A DNA stretch of 22,846 nucleotides from a virus, in IMG/VR virus record IMGVR_UViG_3300020411_000944, positions 1 through 22,846 of that record. The stretch is one strand, 5' to 3'. Within the stretch, counting starts at the first letter, position 1, and each line of letters starts with the position of its first letter. Shown here in pieces: positions 12,614-19,358 of this stretch. The translations under genes and the position numbers were made by a program. The notes beneath the pieces are model-generated. The model was not told the origin of the DNA, did not search any database, and saw only the letters and a program-made list of their open reading frames with translations.

Positions 12614-14953
12614 TTAACAAAAAAAGTAAGTGGATTCAATTACTGACTCAGGTTTAAGGTCGCCAATAATCGGTGGTTCAGTTTCCGCACCTATCTGGTT
12701 AGCGAAATCTGTTAGGTAATCATGCTCTGCGAACAGGTGCATGTATTTCTCTCTGACAATTTTAGATAACTCAGTCATATCAGTAGCTCTACATAAGACA
12801 CTATCATGTATCAAAGCTATTGGATTGTTAAAGTCTAAAGCTGATAGACATAAAAGAGAAGCGTCTAATGAATGTATAAGATTAGGGGCAGTAGCAGCCT
12901 TATGTCTAGCTTTATCTACCGTCCCTGTATCTCCAGTAGACACCCTCATATTACATTGACCTAAGACTTGTAAGGTTATACGTTCATATTCTTTCTTGAA
13001 TATCTGTTGAGATACAATGAAACCTGATGGTGTTACCCACTCAAGTTCAGTAGCTCCACGTTTAATCGCTTTACTTACCTCATCTTCTATCCATTTCATA
13101 ACCCTCATAGGGCCAGGTACTATGACATTCATAGCATCTCTAACAGCTTTAACTGTTTGAGTTAAATCTTCCTTATCAATCTCTATATCCTTATCCTTTA
13201 AAGCATCCCTGATGTACGTCCTATTAGAGAATGGCTTTGCATTGTATGGTATCGTCATTACTGTACGCTTTGTACATTTACGATCCCAGTCAGGGCGTAG
13301 CTTTAGAGGTATATTTGGTTTAGATGTTTCAGCTATTACTTTATAAGCATCTTGCGGCTTATCTGATGGTAATACATTAACAAGTTGAGCTGTTGATTTA
13401 TCTTTAGCGAGACCTGCTAGTATTTGTAAACCACTACATGTAGCGTCTATAGCTATAGGTAAGCCAGTGCTAATTCGATCTCTCTTTATAACACAATGAT
13501 ACATTTCGTCACATGCTGCAAGGAATTGCCACGGTTCCTCAGCTCCCTCCCATAAAGGTAGGTTATCTATAGGATCTGTAGCTATTAATTCTATTTCATG
13601 CTCTGATCTGTATGTCCAACTAAGACGATCATCAAGCGTCTCTTTATCTAGACCAAATGTAGTAGCAACTTGAAACCTTATCCATCTCTCTGCTTCCTCA
13701 TCCATGAAGGATTCATCAGCGAAACGAATAAGACTCTTACCCCAGTCGGTGTCTTGAGGTGTTAGGAATGCAGGTATAGGGTAGATCCGACCTCGGTAAT
13801 CAAATGACCACGGAATATAGAACTTTTCTTTATCCTTAAAGCGTTCTACTGTTTCCATAGTCATCCTTGTACGACATGACTTCTTAAATTCCTGTGCCAT
13901 TAGGTTTCTAACCTCAGACACTTTCCTTCTCCATGTCTTCCTTGACTCAGCATTCTCTGCTATGTCATAAGGTTTGGGTGGTAGATCGTAATTACATATA
14001 GGTTGAAATTTACCCACACTCCTACCCATTGACTGAAGTATTTCAGACACCTTAACAGTCAATGGGTTCAGGGTATAAGCAACCTTTTGTATTTTGTTAA
14101 GGAACTTAAAAGGTTTTTCTCCCTGTATACATGACGACTCAGACCTACGAACCATATCATGACCACGCATGATCTCATTAAGCAAGTAACCACCTGGCTT
14201 TTCAGGTGTCCAGTCATTCGGCTCAATCAACATAGGCCAAGCTAATGGACTGAATAATTCAGCATTATACATGACCTGATCTTTGATAGCCATGAACTCA
14301 GCTGTAGGTACTACGTAACTGTTCTTCTTCCTACCCTTATAGATAATCTGTTTCTCAAACCATTTACTTGTGTCTATGATACAGCTAAGTAACCAACCTC
14401 CTAGCTTAACTCTATTAGCCCTACCCCATGTCGTCCATTGTTGTACCTTATATCTATTCATTAAGGTTTGTATTACTACAATCTTTTGATCTGTACCTAT
14501 GGATTTATGCCAGTAGTTCTTCTTAAGAGTGTTAAGCAGCCCAGGTGCATGTCTTTCATAATGTCTCATCTGACATTCATTCTCTACACCTTTGCCAATA
14601 GCATCACATATATTCTGTATCTGATTACTATCTTCTTTATGGCTAAAGACTTTATCTATTGTTATCTTACATGCTATAGCTGCAGCCGCAAGTGGTTCAA
14701 TGTCAGCTAAGTATTGTTTAATCTCCTTGAATGATTGACCAGTATGACCTTTATGTATTCGTAAATTAGTTTCTTTGATTCTTTCTACTACTAAAGGTAG
14801 TAAAGCATCAATGGTTGTTACTCCATACACAGAAGCTGAAGCATACTCTTTATCTTCAAGGTTTTTAGTATTGTCTCTTAGACGTTTTAATCCTTGAGCA
14901 ATTGCATCACGTTCGTGGTTGATTTGCTCATCTATTTGAGCAGGTGTTGGCAT
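12614..14953 (-). CDS. Phage single-subunit DNA-directed RNA polymerase, T7 gp1-like
   Basis: The 779-residue protein contains the T7 RNA polymerase motifs: FDYRGRIYPIP (residues 384-394, active-site DxxGR-like region), motif A AIDATCSGLQ (D503; T7 D537), motif B TKRTVMTIPYNAKPF (K562 and Y570; T7 K631 and Y639) and motif C ALIHDSVL (D717; T7 D812), preceded by IHSLDASLL. It is about 100 residues shorter than T7's 883, mostly in the N-terminal and loop regions, as in other cyanophage enzymes. It transcribes the phage's middle and late genes; no phage promoter consensus could be recognised. Tyr570 is the 2'-OH discriminator. Start ATG overlaps the preceding small gene stop (TAATG). Confidence 0.97.
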   Translation of the reverse strand: MPTPAQIDEQINHERDAIAQGLKRLRDNTKNLEDKEYASASVYGVTTIDALLPLVVERIKETNLRIHKGHTGQSFKEIKQYLADIEPLAAAAIACKITIDKVFSHKEDSNQIQNICDAIGKGVENECQMRHYERHAPGLLNTLKKNYWHKSIGTDQKIVVIQTLMNRYKVQQWTTWGRANRVKLGGWLLSCIIDTSKWFEKQIIYKGRKKNSYVVPTAEFMAIKDQVMYNAELFSPLAWPMLIEPNDWTPEKPGGYLLNEIMRGHDMVRRSESSCIQGEKPFKFLNKIQKVAYTLNPLTVKVSEILQSMGRSVGKFQPICNYDLPPKPYDIAENAESRKTWRRKVSEVRNLMAQEFKKSCRTRMTMETVERFKDKEKFYIPWSFDYRGRIYPIPAFLTPQDTDWGKSLIRFADESFMDEEAERWIRFQVATTFGLDKETLDDRLSWTYRSEHEIELIATDPIDNLPLWEGAEEPWQFLAACDEMYHCVIKRDRISTGLPIAIDATCSGLQILAGLAKDKSTAQLVNVLPSDKPQDAYKVIAETSKPNIPLKLRPDWDRKCTKRTVMTIPYNAKPFSNRTYIRDALKDKDIEIDKEDLTQTVKAVRDAMNVIVPGPMRVMKWIEDEVSKAIKRGATELEWVTPSGFIVSQQIFKKEYERITLQVLGQCNMRVSTGDTGTVDKARHKAATAPNLIHSLDASLLCLSALDFNNPIALIHDSVLCRATDMTELSKIVREKYMHLFAEHDYLTDFANQIGAETEPPIIGDLKPESVIESTYFFC

Positions 14954-15072
14954 TAGGTTACATCATCAATAAGTTGTTCTTCCATAAGTTTTATTAATTC
15001 ATCCCTGTATGGATGATCCTTTACGTCCTTGATTAATTCAGCTAGACGTATCTGCCTTGTGCGTTTGTTCAC
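14953..15072 (-). CDS. Very small protein immediately before RNA polymerase
   Basis: A 39-residue frame from GTG 15072: basic N-terminus (NKRTRQIRLAEL), then KDVKDHPYRDELIK and LMEEQLIDDVT, an amphipathic helical pattern. The stop codon overlaps the RNA polymerase ATG (TAATG), the coupling used repeatedly in this genome. It overlaps the upstream gene end by 35 nt. No ATG is available; GTG 15072 is the nearest plausible start and another GTG lies 15 codons upstream at 15117. It contains an in-frame CAAGGAC motif (Lys-Asp), shared with neighbours. No family recognised; real translation is plausible but not certain. Confidence 0.5.
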   Translation of the reverse strand: MNKRTRQIRLAELIKDVKDHPYRDELIKLMEEQLIDDVT

Positions 15073-15376
15073 GGTTCTCTGGGTGTGGTGATAGTTTATG
15101 TATTGCTTCGTGATCACACACTACAAATTCATGTGTGTTCACTAGCTTTCTGATCTTATTCTCTGCTGCAGATCTATACTTATATGAATACTCCTTAACC
15201 TTACCAGTCTTCAATGATGTAGCTCTTATAACGCAATCATGGCTGCTAGGTAGTAACCAATTAGCCACATAAAATGCATAGAACTGATCATAAGGTATGG
15301 ATGGAAAGTATTCATACTCTGTATCTGCTACAGCTCTCCAATTGTTTGGATAATACTGTTTAGATTTCTTTTTCAT
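15038..15376 (-). CDS. Unknown early protein (112 aa)
   Basis: The 112-residue product starts MKKKSKQYYPNNWRA and contains YEYFPSIPYDQFYAFYVAN, a beta-rich SHDCVIRATSLKTGKVKEY segment and a C-terminal His/Pro/Asn-rich tail. I selected ATG 15376 over the far upstream ATG at 15445 because the extension reads through the previous gene in another frame. It overlaps the upstream gene by 17 nt. The pattern of a short conserved Trp/Tyr N-terminal region and an RNA/DNA-interaction-like basic middle (YKYRSAAENKIRK) is typical of small early phage proteins, but I recognise no family and propose no function. Confidence 0.72.
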   Translation of the reverse strand: MKKKSKQYYPNNWRAVADTEYEYFPSIPYDQFYAFYVANWLLPSSHDCVIRATSLKTGKVKEYSYKYRSAAENKIRKLVNTHEFVVCDHEAIHKLSPHPENREQTHKADTSS

Positions 15377-15614
15377 AGTCCTTAAAATCCTTTGTTTGAT
15401 CATAGTCTTTGCCAGTCCACACTTCACGTGTGTCCTCATCTTCACAGGGTATTACGTCCTTGAGTTCTTCATCGAGTAACCCTGCTAAGTTGATAGCACG
15501 ATAGCCAGCTTCGATGTTATCTGCACCTTGTACTATGTACTCATTCTTGTTAGTTAGCACGACAAATCTCCTAAGTGGAATGTCACTTAAGCGCGCGTGA
15601 TTGTGAAGATTCAT
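15360..15614 (-). CDS. Unknown early protein (84 aa)
   Basis: An 84-residue acidic protein: RRFVVLTNKNEYIVQGADNIEA suggests a small beta-hairpin domain followed by helix, then LKDVIPCEDEDTREVW and a charged tail (DYDQTKDFKDYEKEI). Its ATG comes 2 nt after the stop of the 43-residue basic gene. It carries one CAAGGAC motif in frame (LKDV). It overlaps the downstream gene by 17 nt. I do not recognise a family. It lies in the early operon just before RNA polymerase, where T7 encodes host-takeover factors. Confidence 0.7.
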   Translation of the reverse strand: MNLHNHARLSDIPLRRFVVLTNKNEYIVQGADNIEAGYRAINLAGLLDEELKDVIPCEDEDTREVWTGKDYDQTKDFKDYEKEI

Positions 15615-15616
15615 TG

Positions 15617-15748
15617 TTAATTAGTGTGTGTAAGTTTACGTACTAATTGTTTAGTTCTAGCCTTAGCTTGACGTAATTGTTGTGGCTTACGTCTGCCTTT
15701 GTTCTTGCGTTTAGTATCCGCGTCCTTGAACTTTAATATAATATTCAT
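15617..15748 (-). CDS. Small, very basic protein (43 aa)
   Basis: A 43-residue protein dominated by Lys/Arg/Gln: DADTKRKNKGRRKPQQLR followed by AKARTKQLVRKL. It is too small for most automatic gene callers. Translation is strongly supported by a good Shine-Dalgarno AGGAG about 9 nt before the ATG, rare among these genes. It overlaps the preceding gene by 38 nt and ends 2 nt before the next start. Its charge suggests binding to nucleic acid or to an acidic protein. It contains an in-frame CAAGGAC (FKDA). No family recognised. Confidence 0.72.
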   Translation of the reverse strand: MNIILKFKDADTKRKNKGRRKPQQLRQAKARTKQLVRKLTHTN

Positions 15749-15959
15749 TGAGTAGTTTCTCCTTTAATGTATGTACGTCCTTGCTACTCATAGTGCATGA
15801 ATCGGGACGCAAATTGATATGGTTGAATCTACCAATGAGATGTATAAGTTCAGCACTATTTAAATTCAATTGACCTCCTTGATAATGTGATAGTAAGGGA
15901 TGTGCCTGTATCCTAACGGTATTTTTTACACATGCTAATAGCAGAGGAAACCGTAACAT
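15711..15959 (-). CDS. Unknown early protein (82 aa)
   Basis: An 82-residue frame starting MLRFPLLLACVKN, with LNLNSAELIHLIGRFNHINL in the middle and SSKDVHTLKEKLLNEYYIK at the C-terminus, a helical, charged end. The hydrophobic N-terminus is too short and followed by basic residues, so it may be a weak signal-like or membrane-interacting segment, or simply a buried helix. An internal ATG (MSSKDV) could be the true start, giving only 26 residues; I prefer the long form because the middle segment is protein-like. It carries the CAAGGAC motif (SKDV). It lies just after the covarying hairpin at 15974. No family recognised. Confidence 0.6.
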   Translation of the reverse strand: MLRFPLLLACVKNTVRIQAHPLLSHYQGGQLNLNSAELIHLIGRFNHINLRPDSCTMSSKDVHTLKEKLLNEYYIKVQGRGY

Positions 15960-15973
15960 AATTAACAGGCAGT

Positions 15974-16015
15974 GAGTCCCTCATCCAACCCACGTATGGG
16001 CTGGAGGAGAGAGTC
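15974..16015 (-). ncRNA. Structured intergenic hairpin HP1 (paralogue of HP2)
   Basis: Minus-strand RNA: a 5' arm GACTCTCTCCTCCAGCCC, a 6-nt loop ATACGT, and a 3' arm GGGTTGGATGAGGGACTC. It forms 16 pairs with mismatches at the third and tenth positions of the 5' arm. It begins at the last base of the stop codon of the upstream gene. Compared with HP2, all three arm differences occur at paired positions, and two preserve pairing (C-G to U-A). This supports a conserved RNA structure. A long, nearly perfect helix just after a stop codon is the layout of T7 RNase III sites; processing here is an inference. Confidence 0.75.
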
Positions 16016-16236
16016 TACTTAGTGGAAGCAGTCTTCTTCTTTGGTGTTACTTCTTTCTCAAGTGATTTCTTTACCATCTCTTGAGCAAACTTAAGCATAG
16101 TCTCAGGCTTGATACCGTCAATGACTACACGATCTTCATAGTCTCTACTTATAACCAACCCACTATGCTCCGCGCAGTACCAGATCTGTGCGTCCTTGAG
16201 ATAGTATTCATGTGTTGATTCGAATGTTAAAGCCAT
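16015..16236 (-). CDS. Unknown early protein (73 aa)
   Basis: A 73-residue protein: MALTFESTHEYYLKDAQIWY then HSGLVISRDYEDRVVIDGIK, and a highly basic C-terminus (LEKEVTPKKKTASTK). The first 55 residues look like a small beta-alpha fold with a Cys; the tail looks disordered. No family recognised. It contains the in-frame CAAGGAC motif (LKDA, codons 13-16). It is bracketed by two long covarying hairpins (HP2 upstream, HP1 at the stop), suggesting its message is released by processing. No Shine-Dalgarno sequence precedes the ATG; the leader is AU-rich. Confidence 0.72.
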   Translation of the reverse strand: MALTFESTHEYYLKDAQIWYCAEHSGLVISRDYEDRVVIDGIKPETMLKFAQEMVKKSLEKEVTPKKKTASTK

Positions 16237-16256
16237 GATAAATTAATAAACAATAA

Positions 16257-16274
16257 GAAGGATATGAATCCTTC
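16257..16274 (-). other. Alternative hairpin competing with HP2
   Basis: On the minus strand GAAGGAT pairs with ATCCTTC around a TCAT loop (7 bp). The GAAGGAT arm is also part of the 3' arm of HP2, so the two structures exclude each other. This could be accidental or a switch between a long and a short hairpin. Confidence 0.45.
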
Positions 16275-16305
16275 ATCTAACCCCGAAGGGCTAGAGGAAA
16301 GAATC
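16266..16305 (-). ncRNA. Structured intergenic hairpin HP2 with UUCG loop
   Basis: Minus-strand RNA: 5' arm GATTCTTTCCTCTAGCCC, tetraloop TTCG, 3' arm GGGTTAGATGAAGGATTC. UUCG is a stable loop when closed by C-G. The hairpin starts within the stop codon of the upstream 86-residue gene. It is clearly related to HP1 but differs at compensating positions. No U-tract follows. A processing or stabilising element, e.g. an RNase III site as in T7, is the likeliest role. Confidence 0.75.
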
Positions 16306-16564
16306 AATCAAACGCACGCGCATATGCTTGATCAAAGATAACACGGGCTTGTTTGCCTATGCTTACTATGTCCCTGATAAGCAAGCGTGTCTCATCAAGG
16401 TGTATCTGCCAGCGTGTGCGTATGTCTGTGTAATACTTACTCATAGGTATTACAGTTAACTCATCAACAAGACAATGATCTTGTAATGAATTAGCTATCT
16501 CTATTAACTGAGCTTTAGTTAGTTTCTCAGTAATAGTATAGGTTAATGCGTCCTTGTATTTCAT
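16304..16564 (-). CDS. Unknown early protein (86 aa)
   Basis: The 86-residue protein starts MKYKDALTYTITEKLTKAQ and is mainly helical (IEIANSLQDHCLVDEL; TRLLIRDIVSIGKQAR). The Lys-Asp of codons 4-5 is encoded by the CAAGGAC motif. It follows tRNA-Asp after about 100 nt that hold two further hairpins, and its stop lies within HP2. I see no catalytic motif and recognise no family. No Shine-Dalgarno sequence is visible. Confidence 0.72.
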   Translation of the reverse strand: MKYKDALTYTITEKLTKAQLIEIANSLQDHCLVDELTVIPMSKYYTDIRTRWQIHLDETRLLIRDIVSIGKQARVIFDQAYARAFD

Positions 16565-16590
16565 GAATCAAAATGAAAGACGGCAAGATA

Positions 16591-16618
16591 TGTAAGCACT
16601 AAAGGTAGTAGTGCTACA
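16591..16618 (-). other. Hairpin in the leader of the 86-residue gene
   Basis: On the minus strand TGTAGCACTA pairs with TAGTGCTTACA with one bulged base, around a 7-nt loop. It lies between tRNA-Asp and the ATG at 16564. It may be a processed 5' end or block the leader; there is no U-run to make it a terminator. Confidence 0.5.
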
Positions 16619-16643
16619 GGTAATGCAAGCATTGAATGATTAA

Positions 16644-16660
16644 CCACTCTCAGTGAGTGG
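16644..16660 (-). other. Hairpin directly after tRNA-Asp
   Basis: CCACTC pairs with GAGTGG around an ACTGA loop, starting 4 nt after the tRNA discriminator base on the minus strand. It is a likely 3' trailer hairpin of the tRNA precursor. A weak terminator is possible, but only a short U-containing stretch follows. Confidence 0.5.
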
Positions 16661-16663
16661 CAA

Positions 16664-16735
16664 CGGTCCATGCGGGAATTGAACCCGCATTACTAGCGTG
16701 ACAAGCTAGCGTACTAACCATTATACGAATGGACC
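16664..16735 (-). tRNA. tRNA-Asp (anticodon GUC)
   Basis: A complete cloverleaf on the minus strand. Acceptor arms are GGTCCAT and ATGGACC; the D-region is TCGTATAATGGTTAGTAC; the anticodon arm is CTAGC-TTGTCAC-GCTAG with anticodon GTC; the T-arm is GCGGG-TTCAATT-CCCGC. The discriminator is G and no CCA is encoded. It lies between two early protein genes in the same transcription unit, 22 nt after the stop codon at 16758. It reads GAC and GAU codons; GAC is the Asp codon in the enriched CAAGGAC motif of the neighbouring genes. Processing of this tRNA would necessarily cut the early message here. Confidence 0.95.
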
Positions 16736-16739
16736 AGAA

Positions 16740-16756
16740 AAGGACATTAAGTCCTT
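16740..16756 (-). other. Hairpin between the acidic early gene and tRNA-Asp
   Basis: AAGGAC pairs with GTCCTT around TTAAT on the minus strand. It overlaps one of the CAAGGAC copies and lies just downstream of the stop codon at 16758, 4 nt before the 5' end of tRNA-Asp. Confidence 0.55.
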
Positions 16757-16757
16757 G

Positions 16758-17108
16758 TTATGCTTGGATAGCATAGAGTTCATCGTCTTCAAGTGCATCA
16801 ACACCATCAACAATACTCATAGCTACAAGCTCAATGAATGACCAAGTAACATCGTTCTTATAGCCAGTGATGTTGTTAGAGTTGTTATTCCAAATCTCTT
16901 CAACAACATCATCACCTAATGTGTCAGTGATGTACTCGATCATCTCATCTTCATACTTATCAAAGAAAGATAGAGTGTCCTTGTAATAGATGTGGTCATG
17001 TGCCACACCTGATACGCAGCCATGCTCTACTATTTCTTTACATGTTTCATAATCGTAAGTGTCCTTGATTACATCATAGGCACTTGATAATCCGATGTTT
17101 AATTGCAT
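16758..17108 (-). CDS. Strongly acidic early protein (116 aa), Ocr-sized
   Basis: A 116-residue protein with 26 Asp/Glu against 5 Lys and no Arg (net about -21). It contains EHGCVSGVAHDHIYYKDTL and FFDKYEDEMIEYITD. The Gly-Cys-Val-Ser-Gly...Tyr-Tyr-x-Asp-Thr pattern recurs in many phage proteins of unknown function (I believe catalogued as DUF7222; not verified). Length, charge and early position are like T7 Ocr (117 residues), a DNA mimic that blocks restriction enzymes, but the sequences are not alike, and a shared fold is not shown. It has two CAAGGAC motifs (IKDT, YKDT). It lies between the tRNA-like element at 17149 and tRNA-Asp. Confidence 0.78.
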   Translation of the reverse strand: MQLNIGLSSAYDVIKDTYDYETCKEIVEHGCVSGVAHDHIYYKDTLSFFDKYEDEMIEYITDTLGDDVVEEIWNNNSNNITGYKNDVTWSFIELVAMSIVDGVDALEDDELYAIQA

Positions 17109-17131
17109 GATGATAATTAATGAGTGAACAT

Positions 17132-17147
17132 TTACCCTTATGGGTAA
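17132..17147 (-). other. Hairpin following tRNA-like element D
   Basis: TTACCC pairs with GGGTAA around an ATAA loop on the minus strand, directly after the acceptor-like 3' strand of element D and before the acidic early gene. It could be a trailer hairpin or protect the 5' end of a processed message. Confidence 0.5.
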
Positions 17148-17148
17148 G

Positions 17149-17194
17149 AGCTAGGCAGGGACTCGAACCCTGCTGTAGTCCTTGACTACTAGCT
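17149..17194 (-). ncRNA. tRNA-like element D (minimal, no D-arm or true anticodon arm)
   Basis: Minus-strand RNA of 46 nt. The acceptor-like stem is AGCTAG/CTAGCT (6 bp). It is followed by an internal hairpin TAGTC-AAG-GACTA, a 3-nt linker CAG, and a canonical T-arm CAGGG-TTCGAGT-CCCTG, then one base and the 3' acceptor strand. The T-loop has the UUCRANY pattern, and the T-stem closes with the invariant G-C pair. It starts 7 nt after the stop codon of the 90-residue gene. A normal tRNA would need about 25 more nt, so it is not a decoding tRNA. It offers the coaxial acceptor/T-stem recognised by RNase P and tRNase Z. Confidence 0.75.
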
Positions 17195-17201
17195 TATTTG
17201 T

Positions 17202-17474
17202 TTATACAAATGATGGTAACTGAGGACCGAAGTCATACTGTTGTGAACCGTATCCAACTAACTCAGTGCGGTTAGCCTTGACGCAGTTGTTGTTAACCCA
17301 GAAACCTAGTGATACATCAGGGTTGAACAATACATTTGCTATTGCTCTAGCTGATACATTCTCATACTCGTACTCATATCCATTAGTGAATCTTACTTGT
17401 GCTTTCCTTGCAAGCAAGTCAACCTTAAGTAAGTCAATAGCAGCTGATGTACGTGTTGGAACTGTGATAAACAT
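17202..17474 (-). CDS. KTSC-like early protein (90 aa)
   Basis: The 90-residue protein shows the layout of the KTSC domain: STSSAAI-like start (TSAAIDLLKVDL), then VRFTNGYEYEYENVSARAI and SLGFWVNNNCVK. KTSC is a small all-beta domain found alone in phage and bacterial proteins or attached to lysyl-tRNA synthetases and other enzymes; its role is unknown. The C-terminus is Gly/Gln/Tyr-rich. The match is by eye and weak in the first 20 residues. The gene lies between tRNA-like elements C and D. No Shine-Dalgarno sequence is visible. Confidence 0.7.
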   Translation of the reverse strand: MFITVPTRTSAAIDLLKVDLLARKAQVRFTNGYEYEYENVSARAIANVLFNPDVSLGFWVNNNCVKANRTELVGYGSQQYDFGPQLPSFV

Positions 17475-17498
17475 AATGAATGAAGTTAAGTGTACAAT

Positions 17499-17517
17499 TT
17501 GGGATGCGATATCCCAA
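17499..17517 (-). other. Hairpin following tRNA-like element C
   Basis: TTGGGAT pairs with ATCCCAA around ATCGC (7 bp) on the minus strand. It lies 2 nt after element C and 25 nt before the ATG at 17474. Its position is like the hairpin after element D. Confidence 0.55.
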
Positions 17518-17518
17518 T

Positions 17519-17559
17519 ACCTGACTGAGGAGTTGAACCTCAGTTAATACCCATCAGGT
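17519..17559 (-). ncRNA. tRNA-like element C (smallest of the series)
   Basis: Minus-strand RNA of 41 nt. The acceptor-like stem is ACCTGA/TCAGGT (6 bp). An 11-nt linker follows without a clear internal hairpin, then the T-arm TGAGG-TTCAACT-CCTCA. The loop fits UUCRANY, and the T-stem can be extended by a C-G pair. It begins at the last base of the stop codon of the 59-residue gene. It is in effect an acceptor/T-stem minihelix. Confidence 0.65.
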
Positions 17560-17738
17560 TAAGCACCATTTGTATAGGAACCCATTGTAGTTTGGCTCCC
17601 ATTTAGTGCACGGAAGATAACCTCGGCGTATCCGTACTCTTCGGATAAGTCAAGGCATAATGACCAGCAGTCATCGAGCTTAGCAAATGCTGTATTCTCG
17701 AAAGGTGCTGCAGGGCAGCGGACTTCATACTTAAACAT
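17559..17738 (-). CDS. Unknown early protein (59 aa)
   Basis: A 59-residue protein MFKYEVRCPAAPFENTAFA with a helical middle (DDCWSLCLDLSEEYG) and AEVIFRALNGSQTTMGSYT. The ATG at 17738 is used; a longer frame would start at TTG 17756, inside the leader between tRNA-like element B and this gene. Two of its three Cys lie in DDCWSLC, but no CxxC pair suggests zinc binding. I recognise no family. Its stop overlaps element C. Confidence 0.7.
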   Translation of the reverse strand: MFKYEVRCPAAPFENTAFAKLDDCWSLCLDLSEEYGYAEVIFRALNGSQTTMGSYTNGA

Positions 17739-17757
17739 GATAATATAATTGAACAAT

Positions 17758-17808
17758 GAAAGAGTGAGGTTTCGAACCTCAGCATCACGCTACACACTGT
17801 ACTCTTCC
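17758..17808 (-). ncRNA. tRNA-like element B (overlaps the end of the upstream gene)
   Basis: Minus-strand RNA of 51 nt. The acceptor-like stem is GGAAGAG/CTCTTTC (7 bp with one G-U). A short TACA-GTG-TGTA hairpin resembles a D-arm, then 9 nt (GCGTGATGC) replace the anticodon arm, then T-arm TGAGG-TTCGAAA-CCTCA. The 5' acceptor strand is encoded in the last codons of the upstream 69-residue gene, and its TAG stop lies inside the internal hairpin, so cleavage at the 5' end would remove the stop codon. Confidence 0.7.
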
Positions 17809-17999
17809 CAGTATTCCTGAAGCTCGTCAGGATCTGTGATAGTCTCGGAGTCTACGTAGTAGTGAGCACCGAGTCCAGATGAACTAGGCCATCCACGTCC
17901 TTGTAAGGACTGGAGAGCTGCTAATACAGCTGGATCTTTAGCTGCCTTGTCATTGACAAGAGCGCAGCCATTGAACATTGGAAACAATTCTGTTTGCAT
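17790..17999 (-). CDS. First early gene: unknown protein (69 aa)
   Basis: A 69-residue protein MQTELFPMFNGCALVNDKAA, then AVLAALQSLQGRGWPSS and an acidic C-terminus (DSETITDPDELQEYWEEYSV). I chose ATG 17999 because the longer frame starting at 18080 runs through tRNA-like element A and is not protein-like. A hairpin GTCCTT-AC-AAGGAC is embedded in the coding region (17897-17910), including the CAAGGAC motif. It is the first gene after the putative host promoter, where T7 encodes anti-host proteins. No family recognised. Confidence 0.7.
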   Translation of the reverse strand: MQTELFPMFNGCALVNDKAAKDPAVLAALQSLQGRGWPSSSGLGAHYYVDSETITDPDELQEYWEEYSV

Positions 18000-18017
18000 A
18001 ATAAATAAAGTAAACAA

Positions 18018-18066
18018 AACCCAGTCAAGGACTCGAACCTTGATGAACGCCGATGCATTCTGGGCT
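18018..18066 (-). ncRNA. tRNA-like element A (leader of the first early gene)
   Basis: Minus-strand RNA of 49 nt. Acceptor-like stem AGCCCAG/CTGGGTT (7 bp, one G-U), internal hairpin AATGC-ATCG-GCGTT, linker CAT, T-arm CAAGG-TTCGAGT-CCTTG, one base, then the 3' acceptor strand. Architecture is the same as element D although the stems differ in sequence. A U-rich trailer follows for about 18 nt to the ATG at 17999. It lies in the 5' leader of the early transcript, so 3' processing would create the start of the first message. Confidence 0.75.
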
Positions 18067-18090
18067 GTTCGTTCATTCATGTTTAACCTA

Positions 18091-18149
18091 GAGCTGGCTT
18101 GGCATCTCCTGAAGGCCTACTTAGTTTCGGCTACTCAAGCAATCAGCTC
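18091..18149 (-). repeat. Inverted repeat in the early leader
   Basis: GAGCTG pairs with CAGCTC at the ends of a 59-nt region on the minus strand, and GCTTG pairs with CAAGC just inside, separated by a 3-nt bulge. The interior is not clearly foldable. It lies between the promoter and element A, so it would be transcribed. It might be a degenerate further tRNA-like element, but no canonical T-arm is visible. Confidence 0.45.
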
Positions 18150-18214
18150 ATCGTTGGCAGTTTATTCGGTTGTCGAGATACGGTTGAGAGCTGGCTGAAG
18201 GGACACCACCAGAA

Positions 18215-18251
18215 AGTTCTCTTAGTTGATTCTGATTGAATCTTGAGAACT
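18215..18251 (-). repeat. Nested hairpin near the start of the early transcript
   Basis: AGTTCTC pairs with GAGAACT, and within it GATTC pairs with GAATC around a 5-nt loop. A second small hairpin CTCTC/GAGAG follows at 18252-18271. They lie 40-80 nt after the putative start point at about 18291. They may protect the 5' end of the early RNA or be processed by RNase III. Confidence 0.55.
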
Positions 18252-18298
18252 CTCTCACCCTCTAACGAGAGTTCGAAAGATCTCAATCTTCAAGAATC

Positions 18299-18327
18299 AA
18301 TCTACATCCGACCGATCCACAAGTCAA
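18299..18327 (-). promoter_or_regulatory. Putative host sigma-70-type promoter for the early genes
   Basis: On the minus strand a -35 TTGACT (18322-18327; 5 of 6 matches to TTGACA) is followed by a 17-nt spacer and a -10 TAGATT (18299-18304; 4 of 6 matches to TATAAT). Transcription would start near 18291 and run through the hairpins and tRNA-like elements into the early genes. A host-type promoter is expected because the phage polymerase is itself encoded in this unit. I found no stronger candidate in the 18.1-18.7 kb region. Confidence 0.55.
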
Positions 18328-18419
18328 GCGTCATTTGGTGTTGATTTGCTGACATTACCACATTATTCCTTCAAACAGCAGTGATAGCAGTAGATATCAG
18401 CATAGCTTATCAATCAGTT

Positions 18420-18719
18420 GGTCAATCATTAGCGAAGCTAAGCATCGCGCACAGATCGCACACCACACACGCCGCCGATCCAACTACCGCGCCTGGTCGC
18501 ACGTGTGGCACAGTGAGAAGCCAGTTGTTGCAAGGGATTTCACGGCACAACACGCGCAAACGCGAACCAACTACCGCCCGCGCGCCCCCGCATGGGGGGT
18601 ACCGCCGTCCCTTTCCTACCGATAATAGACTTCAGAAATTTATGCCAAATTTTCAGGGAAAATAAAGATAAAATAGTAAATAAGCAGGATTATAAGGCAT
18701 ATACCAGGGATAATCCAAC
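18420..18719. other. Gene-free GC-rich island, probable genome-end / terminal-repeat region
   Basis: No credible gene lies between talC and the promoter. The part 18441-18500 is 67% GC and 18541-18600 is 72% GC by count, in an otherwise AT-rich genome. It contains an 11-bp direct repeat CCAACTACCGC (18480-18490 and 18567-18577), a perfect inverted repeat CCCCC-GCAT-GGGGG (18585-18598) and a small hairpin TTAGC-GAA-GCTAA (18429-18441). The last late gene (talC) and the first early gene flank it in head-to-tail order. In P-SSP7-like phages talC is near the right end of the linear genome and direct terminal repeats are present, so the ends likely lie here. The exact boundaries cannot be read from one copy. 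Confidence 0.6.
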
Positions 18720-19358
18720 TCATCCTGCAAAATCAAGCTTAAACTGCTCTAATCCTTTATCTGTTAGCGCATGTTTCGCCATATTATCGAATACTTTAGG
18801 AGGAATAGTACATATATCTGCACCAAGACCAAAAGCTACGCCAACTGACTGAGCATCACGTACAGAAGCTGCTAATATTAACGTATTAATGAATTGTTTC
18901 TTAAATACATTAGATATATCGTTAATTAACCTCATACCATCAAGGCTATTGTCATCCATACGTCCAATAAAGGGTGAAACATACATTGCACCTGCTAAAC
19001 CACACAATATTGCCTGGGATACACTAAATACTAATGTCATATTAACTCGTATACCGATATTCGAAAGATATTTACAAGCTTTAAGCCCTTCTATCGTACA
19101 AGGAAGCTTAATTGTAGCTACGTTACCGTAGTTCTTCTGCACACATACTGCATTAGCTATAAATTCTTTCGAATTATCACCATTTACTTCAATACTCAGA
19201 TCTTCTACACCTAATTCAATAATATCCGAATATACTTTCCACGGATCTCTACCACTCTTTCTAATAAGTGTAGGATTAGTTGTGATACCATGTATAAGAC
19301 CAGTATCTAATCTTTCTTCTATATCACTTACAATAGCTGTATCAAGGAATAACTTCAT
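18720..19358 (-). CDS. talC: Transaldolase, TalC/FSA-type
   Basis: The 212-residue protein is a short-form (TalC/FSA) class I aldolase: MKLFLDTA with D6, GITTNPTLI with T26 and N28, VATIKLPCT with the Schiff-base lysine K84, and later TLVFSVSQA and YVSPFIGRMDD. These are the conserved residues of the family. It moves a dihydroxyacetone unit between sugar phosphates in the pentose phosphate pathway. In cyanophages it is thought to divert host carbon from the Calvin cycle to make NADPH and ribose phosphate for dNTP synthesis, complementing nrdAB. It lies after terminase and before the presumed genome end, as in P-SSP7. A structured leader of about 150 nt precedes it. No truncation is seen. Confidence 0.94.
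   Translation of the reverse strand: MKLFLDTAIVSDIEERLDTGLIHGITTNPTLIRKSGRDPWKVYSDIIELGVEDLSIEVNGDNSKEFIANAVCVQKNYGNVATIKLPCTIEGLKACKYLSNIGIRVNMTLVFSVSQAILCGLAGAMYVSPFIGRMDDNSLDGMRLINDISNVFKKQFINTLILAASVRDAQSVGVAFGLGADICTIPPKVFDNMAKHALTDKGLEQFKLDFAG

Follow-up and report, generated by a model that had tools for sequence, protein, structure and literature searches.

CAAGGAC, a sense-strand word repeated along the early region of T7-like cyanophages

The early region and its copies of CAAGGAC

The window we have analyzed is a stretch of 22,846 nt (IMG/VR record IMGVR_UViG_3300020411_000944, positions 1 to 22,846). It is a piece of a T7-like cyanophage, whose DNA is about 70–75% identical to that of Prochlorococcus phages such as NATL1A-7, and its genes lie on the minus strand. 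Comparison with annotated relatives places the early region at 14954-18719 (minus strand), between the genes for transaldolase (18720-19358) and phage RNA polymerase (12614-14953). This work deals with the heptamer CAAGGAC, which an initial annotation of the sequence had described as strongly enriched in this region.

The enrichment is real. The window contains 14 copies of CAAGGAC, 11 of which are clustered on the minus (coding) strand within 15025-17903 (2.9 kb). Two others are found on the coding strand (10696 and 3127) and one on the plus strand (18026); the latter, which seems incidental, makes up the 3' side of a T-arm hairpin. In dinucleotide shuffles of the window the mean is 2.5 copies (both strands), and 14 are never reached. 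For the stretch 15025-17903 the expected number is 0.15 from base composition (zero-order) or 0.36 from a second-order Markov model. The probability of the 11-copy cluster is about 2e-13 or less, and still below 1e-8 once corrected for the 16,384 possible heptamers. Seven of the copies in the window have the longer form CAAGGACG, which is not found on the opposite strand.

All the clustered sites, numbered here from 1 to 11 in the direction of transcription, lie on the minus strand. Eight of them are read in frame as Lys-Asp, with different neighbors: site 3 (17061-17067, Ile-Lys-Asp-Thr), site 4 (16977-16983, Tyr-Lys-Asp-Thr), site 6 (16550-16556, Tyr-Lys-Asp-Ala, close to the start of the open reading frame (ORF) 16304-16564), site 7 (16192-16198, Leu-Lys-Asp-Ala), site 8 (15777-15783, Ser-Lys-Asp-Val), site 9 (15722-15728, Phe-Lys-Asp-Ala of ORF 15617-15748), site 10 (15456-15462, Leu-Lys-Asp-Val) and site 11 (15025-15031, Ile-Lys-Asp-Val of the small ORF directly ahead of the RNA polymerase gene). 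Site 9 also lies at the end of the upstream ORF 15711-15959, where it is read in another frame. Site 1 (17897-17903) is in the Gln-Gly frame of ORF 17790-18080. The other two are non-coding: site 2 (17178-17184) is part of a mini tRNA-like element, in its small hairpin with the loop CAAGG, and site 5 (16751-16757) lies in the 5' arm of a hairpin directly ahead of the tRNA-Asp. Our recount agrees with the seven extended copies and with the frame assignments of the initial annotation. The early protein encoded at 16758-17108, which has a DUF7222 domain (Pfam E 4e-13), contains two of the copies.

Distribution among T7-like cyanophages

In the IMG/VR relatives of this phage CAAGGAC is often the commonest heptamer of the early region, on the sense strand only. 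The initial annotation named a similar frequency along the whole genome, and an absence from related early regions, as observations that would speak against it. Neither is seen: outside the early region the word is close to background, and in many relatives it is the top 7-mer of an early region enriched in it.

We have compared 88 non-redundant complete early regions of T7-like cyanophages (397 kb). They contain 534 copies of CA[A/T]GGAC on the sense strand vs 37 on the antisense strand, and 48 of the 88 have at least one copy per kb. The 48 richest complete early regions all contain CAAGGAC, with 279 copies found, 28 expected and 9 in antisense. A sample chosen by the presence of an early KTSC gene as sole criterion gives 365 sense and 12 antisense copies, in contigs which partly overlap the other sets. 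In 51 motif-rich early loci there are 248 distinct CAAGGAC copies in sense and 11 in antisense, while most words differing by a single letter have between 5 and 50. The main accepted variant, at position 3, is CATGGAC (52 sense and 3 antisense in the same loci). Position 8 avoids C and is occupied by G, A or T.

Several cultured phages carry the motif: P-SSP7, P-SSP2, P-SSP3, P-GSP1, NATL1A-7, S-TIP37 and S-SBP1, with an early-region G+C content between 0.35 and 0.51. CAAGGAC is absent from the early regions of Tangaroavirus, Syn5, SS120-1 and S-SRP01, and S-RIP1, S-CBP1 and Tangaroavirus hardly carry it. Motif density closely follows the phylogeny of the phage RNA polymerase (lambda 0.96). 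In motif-poor relatives we have found no equally strong motif; the leader words TCACAATC and TCACAGTC, and the word CGAGGCA, are weaker. Nor have we found any published description of the element in our searches of the open-access literature.

Near-tandem runs of the motif are found in locus L059 (6625-6709) and in the early region of P-SSP2 (L167, offset 1963-2005), with sequences CAAGGACGCAAGGACGCA and CATGGACGCATGGACG. Upstream of early genes there are leader words, TTCACAATC or TTCACAGTC, found only in sense, both in the window (about 15620-15595, atgaatCTTCACAATCACG) and in several relatives (L102, L100, L001, L136 and L303). In some phages these leader words run straight into CAAGGACGCA, which is followed by the start codon.

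Level of selection and limits of the motif-bearing stretch

The motif is used in all frames. Of the sites in the motif-rich set, the Lys-Asp or Met-Asp frame accounts for 181, the Gln-Gly or His-Gly frame for 53, the third frame for 23 and the spacers between genes for 74. Spacers make up 24% of the sequence in this set, and site density is similar across frames and spacers. Homologous early genes carry the motif at 4–13 different alignment positions or frames per family; it has therefore been gained and lost again and again within early gene families. Codon choice is also affected: Lys-Asp pairs are written AAG-GAC in 60% of cases in early genes vs 21% from the start of the RNA polymerase gene on, and AAG-GAC is preceded by C in 82% vs 50%. 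The shift to C-AAG-GAC is thus confined to early genes. Because of this use of all frames, the non-coding copies, the turnover of positions and the codon choice, it is nearly certain that selection acts on the nucleic acid and not on the protein, and the initial annotation, which had placed selection at the DNA or RNA level, is borne out on this point.

An effect on proteins (a Lys-Asp motif) or on codons (those that the phage tRNA-Asp(GUC) reads) might be suggested by the Lys-Asp frame of about half of the sites. However, other frames and spacers have a similar density, CATGGAC is also enriched, and some motif-rich phages have no tRNA-Asp: P-SSP7, P-SSP2, P-SSP3, P-GSP1, S-TIP37 and S-SBP1. 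Conversely, L141, L136 and L071 have a tRNA-Asp and are motif-poor. The link with tRNA-Asp(GUC) considered in the initial annotation is therefore not supported. Frame use, CATGGAC enrichment and tRNA-Asp distribution refute the protein or codon explanation, which is almost certainly wrong.

Two simple placement rules have also been discarded. Site counts per gene follow a Poisson distribution and are not even, which rules out one site per gene. Around start codons the distribution in the motif-rich set is nearly flat, with a mild excess near starts, and we have rejected a ribosome-binding role. Some copies in L030, L100, L102 and NATL1A-7 are found directly before ATG.

The stretch that carries the motif is well defined. 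Density is 2–3 sites per kb across most of the 4 kb ahead of the RNA polymerase gene, and mostly 0–0.3 per kb from 2 kb past the start of this gene. At the other end, the first 600 nt beyond the preceding late gene are nearly motif-free in the relatives, and the promoter zone of the window (about the first 640 nt of the early region) has no sites. When the early regions are aligned by their early promoters, which are consensus predictions, there is one site in 14.2 kb upstream vs 69 in 37.5 kb downstream (0.07 vs 1.8 per kb). The evidence that the element belongs to transcribed sequence is strong, but indirect. In the window itself there is a single sigma-70-like early promoter candidate, TTGACT-17-TAGATT (18299-18327, minus strand), which is weak, and the number of such candidates found is the one expected by chance. 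Isolated copies of the motif are found within the first 35–75 nt after transaldolase, the last late gene, in the genome-end region of L014, L089, L107 and L108.

This limit bears on a polar signal in the DNA, such as a Chi-like site or a site promoting the exchange of early cassettes, which the initial annotation had listed as a possible role. A polar 7-mer would agree with such a signal, as would the high gene turnover of the region, but the word stops at the early promoter. In addition, a Prochlorococcus host genome has 28 CAAGGAC copies vs about 20 expected in 386 kb, without any Chi-like excess, and there are 4–7 copies of CAAGGACG per Prochlorococcus genome. Homology breakpoints between the window and its relatives do not cluster at the motif: 12.5% of alignment ends are within 15 nt of a copy vs 9.8% when positions are shifted, and at wider distances there are fewer than expected. 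We consider a DNA-level signal very improbable.

From the RNA polymerase gene on, 155 sense copies are found vs 77 expected. The word is not avoided in later genes, which counts against both a terminator of the phage polymerase and a signal with a lasting destructive effect. In the terminator explanation CAAGGAC would be a pause or termination heptamer, like the class II site ATCTGTT of T7, keeping the phage RNA polymerase out of the early region in concatemers. A strand-specific heptamer whose density follows the phylogeny of this polymerase would fit, but such a word should be avoided in the genes that the phage polymerase transcribes. Moreover, ATCTGTT is present in T7 as a single sense copy near the left end and does not form an array. 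This explanation is improbable, if somewhat less so than a signal in the DNA.

A related possibility is the shut-down of early expression by cleavage: an endoribonuclease of the phage or the host would cut the early mRNAs at CAAGGAC, as T4 RegB does at GGAG. The motif is limited to the early region and the sense strand and contains GGA, as RegB sites do, and RegB also cuts some sites within coding sequences (PMC3014915). On the other hand, most RegB sites are found in ribosome-binding regions, while CAAGGAC is spread almost evenly, and its frequency in middle and late genes is not what selection by a lasting cutter would produce. No RegB-like gene was recognized among the early ORFs of the window. 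We regard a cleavage or decay tag as unlikely.

Base pairing does not appear to be involved either. The initial annotation had suggested complementary small RNAs, but in the window the complement of the motif is found in only one RNA element (the T-arm near 18026), and the early regions of P-SSP7 and P-SSP3, which are motif-rich, have no antisense CAAGGAC. Only the T-arm of a mini tRNA-like element provides a recurrent complement, and it does so in a few relatives, so we have rejected antisense pairing. A hairpin or loop context finds no support in predicted folds, where sites do not differ from controls.

A proposed reader of the early transcript

The explanation towards which we lean, without great confidence, is that early transcripts carry a cis-acting element, CA[A>T]GGAC with G, A or T as the next letter, which is read by a sequence-specific protein that binds single strands. 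We prefer it because it covers the facts with the fewest assumptions. Under selection, the early RNA made by the host polymerase would come to carry the element many times, in spacers and in genes regardless of frame. A small sequence-specific protein, of phage or host origin, would recognize it in single-stranded RNA, and this candidate reader may set the stability or translation of early messages, in a manner similar to CsrA in its logic. Readout is very probably either on RNA or coupled to transcription; of these, we infer readout on the RNA rather than on transcription-coupled DNA, and an RNA-binding protein is a slightly favored kind of reader. Our guess is that its effect on the message is more likely to be favorable or neutral than destructive, since the word is not avoided in later genes. 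Of the roles listed in the initial annotation, a binding site remains the best reading, now narrowed to the transcribed sense strand, while the others find no support.

The leading candidate for the reader, although a doubtful one, is the early protein encoded at 17202-17474 (minus strand, phrog_7365), to which a KTSC domain has been assigned from its profile and predicted fold. In this family 24 of 33 members match PF13619 (best E 2e-8); the window member alone falls below the cut-off (E 0.045). A Foldseek search with its predicted fold has KTSC structures as top matches (4rgi and 7x8c). KTSC proteins have been described as RNA-binding (PMC7824862) and as DNA-binding (PMC9503650), and the title of Tian et al. 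2022 (cited in PMC11237433) presents a member of the family as a single-stranded DNA-binding protein. The KTSC gene is present in all 20 motif-rich complete regions of our first sample. Both gene and motif have been lost in L032 with L106, and in L042, which are nested among motif-rich relatives. In P-SSP7 (L161, NC_006882.2) there is an unannotated early ORF with a KTSC domain at 718-888, upstream of the first annotated gene.

Three gene families, the KTSC family among them, are common to the 18 motif-rich regions first compared. The small early ORF at 14953-15117 (minus strand, phrog_21680) is found in every motif-rich complete early region examined. For the 84 amino acid family represented by 15360-15614 the predicted structure has low confidence (predicted local distance difference test, pLDDT, 68). 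Presence or absence has been discarded as a way to identify the reader gene: the apparent strength of the KTSC family and of phrog_21680 is lost once phylogeny is considered.

Several results weigh against our explanation. After phylogenetic correction (phylogenetic generalized least squares on the RNA polymerase tree) no gene family stands out: t is 1.65 for KTSC, 2.15 for phrog_21680 and 3.15 for the best of 49 families. Sites are present at 1.1–1.5 per kb in four loci where no KTSC gene was detected, and Tangaroaviruses bear the KTSC gene yet have almost no motif. In predicted RNA folds the accessibility of the sites (unpaired probability) equals that of heptamers of the same composition; an earlier test, made without a proper control, had given slightly less accessible sites. 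Finally, the confinement to one strand and downstream of the promoter also fits a transcription-coupled DNA signal.

In such a signal the elongating host polymerase, or else an elongation factor of the phage, would recognize the heptamer in the non-template strand or the nascent RNA. It could be a pause, antitermination or loading site, like ops for RfaH, through which transcription of the early region by the host polymerase is kept processive or regulated. The motif is found only in sense, begins at the predicted promoter and is limited to the stretch where transcription by the host polymerase is expected. It is also independent of position and frame and has no preference for RNA structure. 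But no NusG- or RfaH-like gene was recognized among the early proteins of the window, and many copies per kb would be unusual, as loading sites normally act once near the promoter. We consider this signal not very likely, although it deserves more credit than a cleavage tag.

If the early-transcript element is taken one step further, an early phage protein, possibly KTSC, might read CAWGGAC in single-stranded RNA, at many sites per message and independently of gene and frame. The phage could thus tell its own early RNA from host RNA and from later phage RNA, in what would be a viral post-transcriptional code not described before. This proposal is speculative. A fixed word over unrelated early genes of many lineages, with turnover of its positions, strongly indicates that a sequence-specific reader acts along the whole transcript. 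T7-like cyanophages are abundant marine viruses, and little is known about how they handle early messages after infection. Finding the reader would show in what way early RNA is marked by a small phage as its own. The switch from early to middle expression could then be tested directly, since there are cultured carriers (P-SSP7, P-SSP2, S-TIP37 and S-SBP1) and motif-poor relatives (Tangaroavirus, S-RIP1 and S-CBP1).

Neighboring elements and known systems

Early regions also contain mini tRNA-like elements between genes, formed by a T-arm with a TTCRA loop inside a 6–7 bp acceptor-like stem, without an anticodon arm. Besides the true tRNA-Asp, the window has four of them (18065-18019, 17808-17758, 17559-17519 and 17194-17149, minus strand), none of which is called by ARAGORN or Rfam. 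In all early regions there are 92 candidates in sense (true tRNAs included) vs 17 in antisense and about 3 in shuffles. An alignment of sixteen short elements is 97% paired and has 61 two-sided compensatory cells vs 16 in shuffles. They are regularly trailed by a small hairpin and then by the next gene; in the window this second hairpin lies directly 3' of the element at 17150-17125 and 17518-17495, and further hairpins are found near 16310-16270 and 16020-15975. Cutting of the upstream element would leave the second hairpin at the new 5' end. By analogy with mitochondrial t-elements, the mini elements are possibly punctuation for processing of early mRNA by RNase P and RNase Z. As motif-rich and motif-poor phages both have them, they probably form a system apart from CAAGGAC.

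The motif may be compared with several known systems. With KTSC proteins that bind single-stranded nucleic acids there is agreement in the fold and in a nearly universal early gene of motif-rich phages, but the association with the motif is not significant after phylogenetic correction, and binding of CAAGGAC by them is hypothetical. T4 RegB targets, GGAG/U, are likewise short sense-strand words of early messages containing GGA (PMC3014915), but CAAGGAC is a different word, is spread over coding sequences and is not avoided later. The class II terminator of T7, ATCTGTT, is also a strand-specific heptamer of a T7-like phage, but it is a single site, while CAAGGAC forms an array and is not avoided in genes transcribed by the phage polymerase. 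Chi and other polar DNA motifs are short, strand-specific and distributed along the sequence, as CAAGGAC is; but the latter is not over-represented in the host in the manner of Chi, is nearly absent upstream of the early promoter and does not mark breakpoints.

The last comparison is with CsrA/RsmA (PF02599), whose mRNA sites have the consensus A/U-CANGGANG-U/A. No CsrA homologue was detected in seven host genomes (several of them incomplete) or in ten phage records, in searches with positive controls, and membership in a CsrA regulon is not supported. CAAGGAC also differs from CsrA sites in its nearly fixed C at position 7 and in showing no preference for hairpin loops in predicted folds, where the unpaired probability equals that of controls of the same composition. 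Every site has the ANGGA core. The two kinds of site are alike in having an invariant C, A and GGA, with a tolerant third letter, in the preference for G at position 8 and for A/U ahead of the C, and in the presence of many sites per target RNA.

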